Assembly (NCBI RefSeq): GCF_024267655.1
Contig: NZ_CP100595.1
Coordinates: forward strand, 682,001 to 746,000
Direction: 5' to 3'
Length of the DNA: 64,000 bases
From: Arcobacter roscoffensis
Lineage (GTDB): Bacteria > Campylobacterota > Campylobacteria > Campylobacterales > Arcobacteraceae
In this document: piece by piece, positions 9,521 through 49,823 of the stretch
How the letters are laid out: the number at the start of each line of letters is the position of its first letter
Position numbering within the stretch: the first letter of the stretch is position 1
The notes under the pieces: generated by a model
Databases searched by the model: none
What the model was told of the DNA's origin: nothing
Seen by the model: only the letters and a program-made list of their open reading frames with translations
Program-made: the position numbers and the translations under genes

Positions 9521-9597
9521 TGGCGCGGATGACGAGACTCGAACTCGCGACCTCCTGCGTGACAGGCAGGCATTCTAACCAACTAAACTACATCCGC
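9521..9597 (-). tRNA. tRNA-Asp(GTC), copy 1
   Basis: Acceptor GCGGATG pairs with CATCCGC, discriminator G, encoded CCA; anticodon loop CTGTCAC gives GTC. 77 nt. It is the last tRNA of the twelve-gene array in transcription order. Confidence 0.97.
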
Positions 9598-9617
9598 ATG
9601 ATTTTATAATAAGAAAG

Positions 9618-9693
9618 TGGTGGTCGATAGAAGACTCGAACTTCTGACATCTACCTTGTAAGGGTAGCGCTCTACCAACTGAGCTAATCGACC
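9618..9693 (-). tRNA. tRNA-Val(TAC), copy 1
   Basis: 76 nt with encoded CCA; GGTCGAT/ATCGACC acceptor; anticodon loop CTTACAA gives TAC. In this unit Val follows Glu in transcription order, the reverse of the other two units. Confidence 0.97.
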
Positions 9694-9697
9694 TTGA

Positions 9698-9772
9698 TGG
9701 TGACCCCTAGGAGACTCGAACTCCTGTGGCATGGATGAAAACCATGAATCCTAACCGCTAGATGAAGGGGCC
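9698..9772 (-). tRNA. tRNA-Glu(TTC), copy 1
   Basis: 75 nt with encoded CCA; acceptor GGCCCCT/AGGGGTC with one G-T pair; anticodon loop TTTTCAT gives TTC. Only 4 nt separate it from tRNA-Val. Confidence 0.97.
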
Positions 9773-9792
9773 ATCAATAAAAAGTGTATATA

Positions 9793-9868
9793 TGGTGACC
9801 CGTGAAGGATTCGAACCTTCGGCCACCTCCTTAAAAGGGAGATGCTCTACCAGCTGAGCTAACGGGTC
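9793..9868 (-). tRNA. tRNA-Lys(TTT), copy 1
   Basis: 76 nt with encoded CCA; acceptor GACCCGT/ACGGGTC; anticodon loop CTTTTAA gives TTT. Confidence 0.97.
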
Positions 9869-9883
9869 AATATAAATAAAAAG

Positions 9884-9960
9884 TGGCGCGGATGACGAGA
9901 CTCGAACTCGCGACCTCCTGCGTGACAGGCAGGCATTCTAACCAACTAAACTACATCCGC
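9884..9960 (-). tRNA. tRNA-Asp(GTC), copy 2
   Basis: Same 77-nt sequence as the copies at 9521 and 10243. First element (in plus coordinates) of tandem repeat unit B. Confidence 0.97.
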
Positions 9961-9973
9961 ACACTTTAAGTAA

Positions 9974-10048
9974 TGGTGACCCCTAGGAGACTCGAACTCC
10001 TGTGGCATGGATGAAAACCATGAATCCTAACCGCTAGATGAAGGGGCC
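9974..10048 (-). tRNA. tRNA-Glu(TTC), copy 2
   Basis: Same 75-nt sequence as the other Glu copies; followed by a 23-nt spacer before tRNA-Val that is identical in the next repeat unit. Confidence 0.97.
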
Positions 10049-10071
10049 ACATAATAACAATAAATTTTTAA

Positions 10072-10147
10072 TGGTGGTCGATAGAAGACTCGAACTTCTG
10101 ACATCTACCTTGTAAGGGTAGCGCTCTACCAACTGAGCTAATCGACC
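10072..10147 (-). tRNA. tRNA-Val(TAC), copy 2
   Basis: Same 76-nt sequence as the other Val copies; separated from tRNA-Lys by 4 nt. Confidence 0.97.
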
Positions 10148-10151
10148 AAAA

Positions 10152-10227
10152 TGGTGACCCGTGAAGGATTCGAACCTTCGGCCACCTCCTTAAAAGGGAG
10201 ATGCTCTACCAGCTGAGCTAACGGGTC
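10152..10227 (-). tRNA. tRNA-Lys(TTT), copy 2
   Basis: Same 76-nt sequence as the other Lys copies; closes repeat unit B. Confidence 0.97.
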
Positions 10228-10242
10228 AATACAAATAAAAAG

Positions 10243-10319
10243 TGGCGCGGATGACGAGACTCGAACTCGCGACCTCCTGCGTGACAGGCAGGCATTCTAA
10301 CCAACTAAACTACATCCGC
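10243..10319 (-). tRNA. tRNA-Asp(GTC), copy 3
   Basis: Same 77-nt sequence as the other Asp copies; starts repeat unit C exactly 359 nt after unit B. Confidence 0.97.
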
Positions 10320-10332
10320 ACACTTTAAGTAA

Positions 10333-10407
10333 TGGTGACCCCTAGGAGACTCGAACTCCTGTGGCATGGATGAAAACCATGAATCCTAACCGCTAGATGA
10401 AGGGGCC
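10333..10407 (-). tRNA. tRNA-Glu(TTC), copy 3
   Basis: Same 75-nt sequence as the other Glu copies, in the same context as in unit B. Confidence 0.97.
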
Positions 10408-10430
10408 ACATAATAACAATAAATTTTTAA

Positions 10431-10506
10431 TGGTGGTCGATAGAAGACTCGAACTTCTGACATCTACCTTGTAAGGGTAGCGCTCTACCAACTGAGCTAA
10501 TCGACC
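10431..10506 (-). tRNA. tRNA-Val(TAC), copy 3
   Basis: Same 76-nt sequence as the other Val copies, in the same context as in unit B. Confidence 0.97.
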
Positions 10507-10510
10507 AAAA

Positions 10511-10586
10511 TGGTGACCCGTGAAGGATTCGAACCTTCGGCCACCTCCTTAAAAGGGAGATGCTCTACCAGCTGAGCTAACGGGTC
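10511..10586 (-). tRNA. tRNA-Lys(TTT), copy 3
   Basis: Same 76-nt sequence as the other Lys copies. First tRNA of the array to be transcribed, about 33 nt after the predicted start site. Confidence 0.97.
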
Positions 10587-47531: not shown

Positions 47532-48038
47532 ATGGCAACGACTAAATTAAAAGGTAATGTTGTAAACTTAACTGGAAATGAAGTAAATGTTGGTGATAAA
47601 GCACCAGTTGTAAATGTAGTAGCAAAAGACTTATCAAATGTACAAGTTGGTGGAGAGTCTGGAAAAACTCAAATTGTAGTTGTAGTTCCATCATTAGACA
47701 CTCCTGTATGTGCTGCTGAAACTAGAAAATTCAACGAAGAAGCTGCAAGTATTGAAAATGCAGAAGTAGTTGTAGTTTCTATGGACTTACCATTTGCAAT
47801 GGGAAGATTTTGTACAACTGAAGGAATTGAAAATGTAACTGTTGGTTCTGACTTCAGAGCTAAAGAGTTCGCTAATGCTTATGGTGTATTAATTGCTGAT
47901 GGTGCTTTAGCAGGTGTTACTTGTAGAGCTGTATTTATCATCAATGCTGCAGGTGAAGTAACTTTCAAAGAGATTTGTCCAGAAATTACAGAAGAACCAA
48001 ACTACGCAGAGATTTTAGAAGCTGCAAAAAACGCTTAA
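47532..48038 (+). CDS. tpx: Thiol peroxidase Tpx
   Basis: A 168-residue atypical 2-Cys peroxiredoxin that reduces peroxides with thioredoxin. Peroxidatic C60 is in PSLDTPVCAAETRKF; the resolving cysteine is C94 in FAMGRFCTTEG. Full length. Strong AAGGAC-type site. Codon usage is that of a highly expressed gene. It precedes msrPQ, another oxidative-damage system, but a long hairpin lies between them. Confidence 0.95.
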   Translation: MATTKLKGNVVNLTGNEVNVGDKAPVVNVVAKDLSNVQVGGESGKTQIVVVVPSLDTPVCAAETRKFNEEAASIENAEVVVVSMDLPFAMGRFCTTEGIENVTVGSDFRAKEFANAYGVLIADGALAGVTCRAVFIINAAGEVTFKEICPEITEEPNYAEILEAAKNA

Positions 48039-48065
48039 TAATCAAAACTTATTAGTTTACTAAAC

Positions 48066-48118
48066 ATATCCTTTACACTAAAAGATTAAACTTCTTTTAT
48101 AAAATGTGTAAAGGATAT
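48066..48118 (+). promoter_or_regulatory. Long hairpin sequestering the msrP ribosome-binding site
   Basis: ATATCCTTTACAC (48066-48078) is a perfect complement of GTGTAAAGGATAT (48106-48118); inside, TAAAAG (48079-48084) pairs with CTTTTA (48094-48099). The 3' arm contains AAAGGA, the only Shine-Dalgarno for the msrP ATG at 48121. No T-run follows, so it is not a standard terminator. It is well placed to switch translation of msrP. Confidence 0.7.
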
Positions 48119-48120
48119 TT

Positions 48121-49080
48121 ATGAAAATAATCAAAAAGCCATCTTGGCAACTAAATGAAAATGAAGTAACTCCCAAAGAATTATTTGACAAAAGAAGAAA
48201 CTTTTTAAAACTTGGTGCTGCAAGTTTAGTAGCTAGTGGAGCTATTTTAGAGACTTTAGCAAAAGATAACATTCCTATAAAAAATTTAGATTTTATAAAA
48301 GATAAAAATTTAAATAACTTAAAATTAAATACCTATGAACAAATCACTACATATAATAACTTTTATGAATTCACTACATCTAAAACAAGAGTAAAAGATT
48401 TAGCTAGAACTTTTGATACTTCAAACTGGACTATTGATATTGATGGTTTAGTTGAAAAAGAGATGACATTAGATTTAGATGATTTAATGAAAACTATGAG
48501 TTTAGAAGAGAGAATCTATAGATTTAGATGTGTAGAAGGGTGGTCTATGGTTGTACCTTGGATTGGCTTTACTTTAAAAGATTTAATCAAAAAAGTAAAA
48601 CCTTTATCAAAAGCTAAATATGTAAGATTTGAAACATTACTTGATGAAGAGCAGTTCCCTGACCAAGCAAGAGGAATTTTTGCAACTATTAAATATCCAT
48701 ATGTAGAAGGTCTTAGAATGGATGAAGCTATGAATGACTTAACACTTATGGCTGTGGGTTTATATGGTTCAAAAATGCCAAATCAAAATGGAGCTCCTAT
48801 AAGACTTATTGTTCCGTGGAAATATGGATTTAAATCAATAAAATCAATTGTTAGAATTTCTTTTGTAGAAGAACAACCTGTTAATTCTTGGCAAGAACAA
48901 AATTCAAGAGAGTATGGTTTTTATGCAAATGTAAACCCAAATGTAGATCATCCAAGATGGTCTCAAAAAAGAGAAAGAGTACTTGGTAAATTTTTCAAAC
49001 AAGACACTTTGATGTTTAATGGTTATGAAAAAGAAGTAGCACATCTTTATAAAGGGATGGATTTAAGAAAGTTTATATGA
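48121..49080 (+). CDS. msrP: Protein-methionine-sulfoxide reductase catalytic subunit MsrP
   Basis: A 319-residue periplasmic molybdoenzyme (YedY) that repairs oxidised methionine in envelope proteins. Twin-arginine signal [17 protein letters not shown] (R25/R26), molybdenum-ligand C137 in [18 protein letters not shown] and [20 protein letters not shown] near 240 are all present. Translation starts right behind a long hairpin that covers its ribosome site. It overlaps msrQ by 4 bp (ATGA). Confidence 0.94.
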
Positions 49081-49640
49081 TGAAAAGATTAGCAATTCAC
49101 ATAACACTATTTTTACCTCTTATATTTTTATTAGTTCAATTATTTATAATTGAAGTAAATGATCCAGTAAAATATATATATACAATAAGTGGAATAGTTT
49201 CAACAGTAATATTATTTTTTTCTATTACTATTTCACTTATTAAAAAAAGAGTAAATCTTCTAAAATACAGAAGAGCCATAGGTCTATGGGGATTTTTTTA
49301 TGCCTTAGTGCATATGATAAATTTTGTAGTTTTTGATGCTCAGTTTGACATATATTTTATACTTGAAGAGACTTTTGATAAGCCTTTTATTTATCTAGGA
49401 ATGATTGCATTTTTTATTTTACTATTTATGGCAGCTACTTCAACAAGAAAGCTTTTCAGAAAATATAGTAAATATCACGCAAGTGTTTATTTAGCTTTAC
49501 TTTTAATAACTATTCATTTTGTTATGGCTCAAAAAACTATTGATATTGATATGTTTTGTTATATTGCTGTGATTTTGGTTATTGGATATTATAAACTATT
49601 GCAAATAATAGTGAAAAATAGTAAGGTTTATACAAGTTAA
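49077..49640 (+). CDS. msrQ: Haem-binding membrane subunit MsrQ
   Basis: A 187-residue inner-membrane cytochrome b (YedZ) passing electrons from the quinone pool to MsrP. Six helices are predicted; [20 protein letters not shown] (His near 79), [21 protein letters not shown] (His near 140 and 151) supply haem ligands. Starts with two tandem ATGs; the first overlaps the msrP stop. Normal length. Confidence 0.92.
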
Positions 49641-49696: not shown

Positions 49697-49823
49697 ATAG
49701 ATAAGTTGACGCAGCGACTTATTTATGTAAGTATTTTTAAGATAAGATTTCTTAAATATAAATAATTTTTTTTATGTTTCCTTGTGTTAAAAAGAGGTGT
49801 CAGAAATGGCACCTCTTTTTTTT
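49697..49823 (+). ncRNA. Candidate small RNA downstream of msrPQ
   Basis: The 271-bp gap after msrQ has a TATAAT at 49685-49690, a stem-loop ATAAGTTG/CGACTTAT (49701-49722, one G-T pair) and a classic rho-independent terminator (49791-49823). A transcript of about 127 nt with two hairpins would fit. It contains no good open frame. Alternatively the terminator serves msrPQ read-through. Confidence 0.4.
49791..49823 (+). terminator. Strong intrinsic terminator
   Basis: AAAGAGGTGTC (49791-49801) pairs with GGCACCTCTTT (49808-49818, one T-G pair), loop AGAAAT, followed by T through 49823. One of the best terminators in the window, 150 bp from the nearest upstream gene. Confidence 0.88.

Follow-up and report, generated by a model that had tools for sequence, protein, structure and literature searches.

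Within the window, by which we mean the whole 64,000-nucleotide stretch of Arcobacter roscoffensis DNA that was analysed, msrP, encoding the catalytic subunit of a periplasmic methionine sulfoxide reductase, occupies positions 48121-49080 of the forward strand (NF003767, 464.6 bits against a cut-off of 207). It is overlapped by a gene for an msrQ-like heme-binding subunit (49077-49640, +), whose match to NF003831 scores 96.6 bits and lies below the cut-off of 130, and an intrinsic terminator consisting of a 14-pair stem and a T tail is located 3′ of msrPQ (49789-49820, +). The gene upstream, on the same strand as msrP and 82 nt away from it, is tpx for thiol peroxidase (47532-48038, +; NCBIfam NF045827/NF001808). 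The names msrP and tpx had been given to these genes in an earlier note and are upheld by the NCBIfam profile matches. No terminator-like site was found between tpx and msrP.

Directly in front of msrP lies an inverted repeat whose 5′ arm (ATATCCTTTACAC, 48066-48078, +) and 3′ arm (GTGTAAAGGATAT, 48106-48118, +) are complementary at 13 of 13 positions across a gap of 27 nt, confirming the perfect 13-bp arm described in the earlier note. The minimum free energy (MFE) of 48040-48160 is −26.1 kcal/mol compared with −9.9 ± 2.6 kcal/mol in 200 shuffles (z = −6.3), none of which was as stable. Inside the arms, the MFE structure features an inner stem (48079-48085 paired with 48093-48099), an apical loop of 7 nt and a 6-nt bulge at 48100-48105; the inner pairing had been anticipated correctly, although with 6 pairs instead of the 7 found. 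The Shine-Dalgarno sequence (SD) AAAGGA (48110-48115) falls wholly within the 3′ arm and all of its bases are paired, so the SD is indeed caught as had been proposed. The distance of 2 bases to the start codon holds for the end of the 3′ arm and not for the SD, which ends 5 nt before the ATG at 48121. The genomic background for SD-covering duplexes was provided by 20 stretches and the window, together 464 kb of the same genome with 199 SD-bearing genes, amongst which the msrP duplex is the strongest by far at −18.1 kcal/mol, the next reaching −12.2 kcal/mol. Two genes of this genome (L178:1340 and L173:12470) carry SD-covering duplexes of −11 to −12 kcal/mol, with a TATAAT between the arms in one of them, and are possible further instances of the msrP-type device.

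Three other identities for the hairpin were considered and rejected. Near-matches to the arm across the genome were not above the control pattern, and given this lack of excess the arm is neither a dispersed repeat nor a genome-wide transcription-factor motif. Rfam covariance models applied to the window returned only tRNAs and nothing at the msrP hairpin, so that a riboswitch or leader described in Rfam was dismissed for want of a model match. An intrinsic terminator was discarded as well, with the stem lacking a T-run and no terminator-like site being scored from tpx to msrP, in agreement with the view of the earlier note that a tpx terminator is unlikely here.

A family search covered 104 genomes, about 60 of which contain a full-length or nearly full-length MsrP, and the upstream regions were read. 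In the window, the 5′ arm, which acts as an anti-Shine-Dalgarno in the fold and covaries with the 3′ arm, overlaps the second half of a direct-repeat box of the activator type (CTAAACA-TATC-CTTTACA, 18 nt, 48060-48077, +), and a proposed −10 hexamer, TAAACT (48087-48092, +), follows 9 nt past the box in the apical loop. With up to several mismatches tolerated in box matching, each of the 54 family loci in the final set, species without the hairpin included, has the box CTAMACA-N4-CTTWACA in front of msrP, followed after exactly 9 nt by TANNNT; the distance from box to ATG varies between 35 and 72 nt. The full box-plus-spacing pattern has a single exact match in this genome, the msrP site. The −10 hexamer is invariant in position amongst the relatives and is usually TATAAT, TAAAAT or TAAACT there (mostly TANAAT or TANACT); the sigma-70 −10 element of Campylobacter and Helicobacter is gnTAnaAT (PMC3847290). 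The hexamer of the window agrees with TATAAT at only 4 of 6 positions. Promoters activated by OmpR/PhoB-type regulators carry two 7-nt direct repeats 11 bp apart, with the −10 element about 10 bp further downstream, and the msrP box conforms to this layout with its 7-nt direct repeats 11 bp apart followed by 9 nt and TANNNT. This resemblance suggests the msrPQ promoter is probably activated by an OmpR/PhoB-type response regulator at the box. At one of the loci with an msrP-type box (L200), the box stands beside a divergent OmpR-family regulator gene, making its product a candidate regulator of the msrP box; the closest homologue in the A. roscoffensis genome is 53% identical (G000, 104542-105201).

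Because the hexamer sits in the apical loop, transcription is predicted to start past the 5′ arm, approximately 7 nt beyond the hexamer and near 48099 (48097-48101, +). RNA from the msrP promoter itself should therefore contain no 5′ arm and have an accessible SD, with a predicted leader of about 22 nt. A literature search for an Arcobacter transcription start map found none. Distant MsrP loci (Campylobacter, Sulfurospirillum, Sulfurimonas and other records) have no such box, with the exception of a similar layout in L064. At this locus, which encodes a distant Campylobacterales MsrP (53% identity), an element resembling the box is followed at 9 nt by TATAAT, and the SD shows partial complementarity to that element; by this layout the msrP device may be older than the family. 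A further locus (L150, genome G023) retains only a remnant of msrP with in-frame stops and a damaged start, yet the box, the −10 element and the hairpin arms are kept.

Conservation of the pairing was analysed in an alignment of 20 diverse sequences picked from the hairpin-bearing loci (A1), in which a 14-pair helix was scored. Standard pairs made up 80.1% of the cells versus 75.4 ± 0.8% after shuffling, and double-change cells numbered 12 versus 3.6, neither value being reached in any of 500 shuffles. The covariation score was 0.163 versus 0.076 for shuffled arms, with slid helices at or below 0.076, and RNAalifold recovered the core of the same helix unaided. Exchanging the arms between species lowered the pairing from 10.7 to 9.86 ± 0.14 (0 of 5,000 exchanges as high), a control that, like the shuffles, still includes the relatedness of the sequences. 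On the MsrP tree, at least 4, 1 and 4 Watson-Crick type switches were counted at box positions 8, 9 and 10, which belong to the three adjacent core pairs showing variation. The compensatory changes amongst relatives that the earlier note had recommended looking for are thus present, both as double-change cells and as at least nine pair-type switches on the tree. The core pairs occur, for example, as TATC/GATA, TACC/GGTA, TAGC/GCTA (L128), AATC/GATT (L130), CATC/GATG (L132) and ACTC/GAGT (L140), and the varying bases mostly belong to the N4 spacer of the box that the repeat motif leaves free. In the core beside the SD, 90% of cells form pairs at loci without an upstream terminator versus 38%, about the chance level, at loci with one. 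The inner stem is not conserved in the relatives. A comparison of G-U with A-C mismatches does not discriminate between pairing in RNA and in DNA, since G is held constant in the 3′ strand by the SD. The msrP hairpin over the ribosome-binding site is a genuine and conserved structure.

Predicted accessibility of the SD was compared between read-through RNA and RNA from the loop promoter. At loci without a terminator the unpaired value of the SD was 0.04 (median) in the former versus 0.73 in the latter, and the corresponding values for the window were 0.00 and 0.84. Covariation and predicted accessibility together support the sequestration of the SD by RNA pairing that had been suggested. In the model, the read-through hairpin remains closed from 4 to 50 °C with the SD unpaired value going from 0.0001 to 0.003, and this modelled opening, below 0.004 over the whole range, argues against an RNA thermometer.

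For each locus, the arm duplex was scored and intrinsic terminators were called by script in the interval from the stop codon of the preceding gene to the box. Duplexes of −6 kcal/mol or stronger, a cut-off set after seeing the data, were found at 39 of 40 loci without a terminator versus 1 of 14 loci with one (Fisher p = 1.7e-10). When a cut-off of −10 kcal/mol was applied, the hairpin was present at 1 and absent at 13 of the terminator loci, with 32 and 8, respectively, for the loci without terminator. Well-supported branches of the tree yield five phylogenetically independent pairs, all of which follow the exchange (mean over random pairings, 4.9 of 5); the resulting p = 0.0625 is the minimum reachable with five pairs. 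The upstream gene is tpx in the window and nnrS (PF05940) in most relatives. Both genes occur in both states: tpx without a terminator is accompanied by the hairpin (window, L029) and tpx with a terminator by its absence (L008, L015, L016, L021, L024, L027), while nnrS lacks a terminator and is followed by the hairpin in most relatives and has a terminator and no hairpin at L147 and L149. Judged from these loci, the exchange is independent of which gene stands upstream. Two loci depart from the trade-off: L007 has both terminator and hairpin, and L127 has neither. In L007, where 72 nt separate box and ATG, an extra small stem lies between the −10 element and the SD, and its sister L008 has lost the pairing; L007 resembles an intermediate stage.

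An identical arrangement of box and spacing precedes yceI-type (PF04264) and other genes at 12 further loci, where the duplexes amount to only −1.0 to −5.3 kcal/mol, and box and SD alone therefore do not generate a hairpin. Most of these 12 loci have a divergent neighbour, and at least one is located beside an OmpR-family regulator gene. Eight loci (L199, L200, L202, L204, L206, L207, L211, L212) feature the msrP-type box with its 9-nt spacing before yceI-type genes or genes for Cys/Gly-rich small proteins.

What the sequences themselves show is the hairpin, its covariation, a promoter-like layout and the exchange of hairpin for terminator. In our judgement these make it probable that the hairpin serves msrP as a translational insulator, of the type found at phage T4 gene e and I-TevI, that shields the gene from read-through transcription. 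From them we infer the transcription start, the regulator, the read-through and its amount, and the block to translation. According to this model, the msrPQ promoter would have its −10 element inside the hairpin loop and its box probably bound by an OmpR/PhoB-type response regulator. RNA begun near 48099 would contain the 3′ arm only, leaving the SD free and allowing MsrP to be made. Transcription of tpx, or of nnrS in most relatives, would in the absence of a terminator produce read-through RNA bearing both arms, in which the SD would be buried and no MsrP made, with the outcome that msrP would respond to its own promoter alone. Lineages with a proper upstream terminator have lost the pairing; since it is lost with a terminator and kept without one, pairing tracks the need for insulation. 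The coupling to tpx read-through proposed in the earlier note names the right transcript, with a sign that is probably the opposite, as the hairpin would block translation of the read-through RNA. One observation speaks against the insulator: a few relatives have the stop codon of nnrS within the box or adjoining it, and ribosomes terminating there might open the hairpin. With somewhat less confidence, we favour the broader reading that the DNA of the activator box (second repeat and spacer) doubles as the anti-SD in read-through RNA, and that hairpin and terminator are interchangeable insulators across the family, such that pairing over the SD would be gained in response to the loss of an upstream terminator, and lost in response to the gain of one.

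The terminator trade-off would likewise be accounted for if the hairpin acted for the 3′ end of the tpx or nnrS mRNA, as a weak terminator, an exonuclease block or an RNase III site. We regard this as unlikely: no terminator-like site was scored, there is no T-tract, the T counts past the 3′ arm are similar in loci with and without a terminator, and it leaves unexplained that the SD is always in the 3′ arm when any intergenic position would do. A 3′-end function could coexist with the insulator function. An operator in the DNA, with the inverted repeat serving as two transcription-factor half-sites and the 3′ arm as an inverted response-regulator half-site over the start, could draw on the overlap of the 5′ arm with the conserved direct-repeat box and on the perfect inverted half-site TGTAAAG inside the 3′ arm of the window. 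It nevertheless appears quite improbable, because the direct half-site is nearly invariant while the inverted one, in 25 of 39 no-terminator loci, agrees at just 4-5 of its 7 positions, conservation tracks complementarity beside the SD rather than a fixed motif, the spacing from arm to arm varies without helical phasing, the box is found alone where the hairpin is absent, and the terminator trade-off would be left unexplained.

The strength of the hairpin over the SD could also point to a regulated switch on msrP's own mRNA, namely a thermosensor or a protein or sRNA target as put forward in the earlier note, which we consider very improbable. With the −10 element located between the two arms in the relatives, RNA from the promoter would be without the 5′ arm, and the predicted start near 48099 falls inside 48079-48120, where transcript starts would, by the earlier note's own criterion, refute its proposal. 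A thermosensor is further disfavoured by the modelled fold being shut from 4 to 50 °C. Moreover, the inner stem is unconserved, no Rfam family matches at the hairpin and terminator-bearing species have lost it. Translational coupling, whereby ribosomes finishing tpx or nnrS open the hairpin and msrP on the long RNA needs upstream translation, is hardly credible, for although the nnrS stop codon lies in the box or a few nt from it in L128, L143, L145 and L130, the tpx stop codon of the window ends 27 nt before the 5′ arm, which exceeds the reach of a terminating ribosome given its footprint size, and the box begins 12-18 nt past the stop codon in the loci of genus g19.

For the insulator, the closest precedents are found in phages. 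Long upstream transcripts of the T4 lysozyme gene e fold an SD-covering hairpin and are poorly translated, and promoters just upstream of the ribosome-binding site give RNA without the 5′ strand that is translated (PMC3014915). By prediction and covariation the msrP hairpin similarly covers the SD in long transcripts, and its proposed −10 hexamer lies in the loop at invariant spacing to the box in 54 loci, the start being a prediction; in contrast, gene e is a phage late gene under phage late promoters, whereas msrP belongs to a chromosomal repair operon with an activator-type box and its device has been swapped for terminators in evolution. T4 I-TevI, I-TevII, I-TevIII and segB and Aeh1 mobE form such a hairpin only on upstream-initiated RNA, and late-promoter RNA cannot fold it (PMC2988022). 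Their logic is the same as that proposed for msrP, the difference being that these are phage homing endonuclease genes. We know of no link between T4-type homing endonuclease leaders and a two-component box or host terminators. In the fold-back protection of IS10, RNA from outside hides the transposase ribosome-binding site and RNA from the element's own promoter does not; here the difference is that IS10 concerns the ends of a mobile element and msrP is a conserved chromosomal gene. A precedent for two-component control of msrPQ comes from E. coli, where hiuH-msrPQ is controlled by the response regulators HprR/CusR at a palindromic box, CATTACAAAATTGTAATG, unlike the 11-bp direct repeat at Arcobacter msrP, and the available portion of that report mentions no SD hairpin (PMC9302797). 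In the PvuII system, deleting predicted hairpins that occlude the ribosome-binding site had no effect, albeit for weak ones of −4.6 kcal/mol (PMC2997769), which by analogy may serve as a caution for predicted hairpins such as that of msrP. As modelled, the msrP device would work like the leaders of T4 gene e and the homing endonucleases.

No earlier report of a hairpin device for msrP was found in the open-access literature. Silencing of read-through RNA by a hairpin, with own-promoter RNA one arm short, has so far been described mainly for phage genes (T4 e, homing endonucleases), and msrP would extend it to an ordinary stress-repair operon of bacteria, as a conserved element of its regulation. 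Species placing a terminator upstream dropped the hairpin and thereby provide a natural experiment. If the model is true, hairpins of this kind constitute a third means, besides terminators and Rho, of separating neighbouring transcription units, and one with a simple searchable signature. The locus also carries a warning that an SD-covering hairpin is not necessarily a thermosensor or riboswitch, and that interpretation of the fold should wait until the position of the promoter has been established.

Two minor observations concern other parts of the genome. Twelve tRNA genes are packed into approximately 1.1 kb of the window (9524-10586, −) with scores recurring every ~360 bases, which suggests tandem amplification of a tRNA block. 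Furthermore, TTTAACATTATCTTTACACTCATTACCTAATGT is present in eight identical copies in the A. roscoffensis genome (e.g., 278575-278607) and is probably part of a repeated element or operon.
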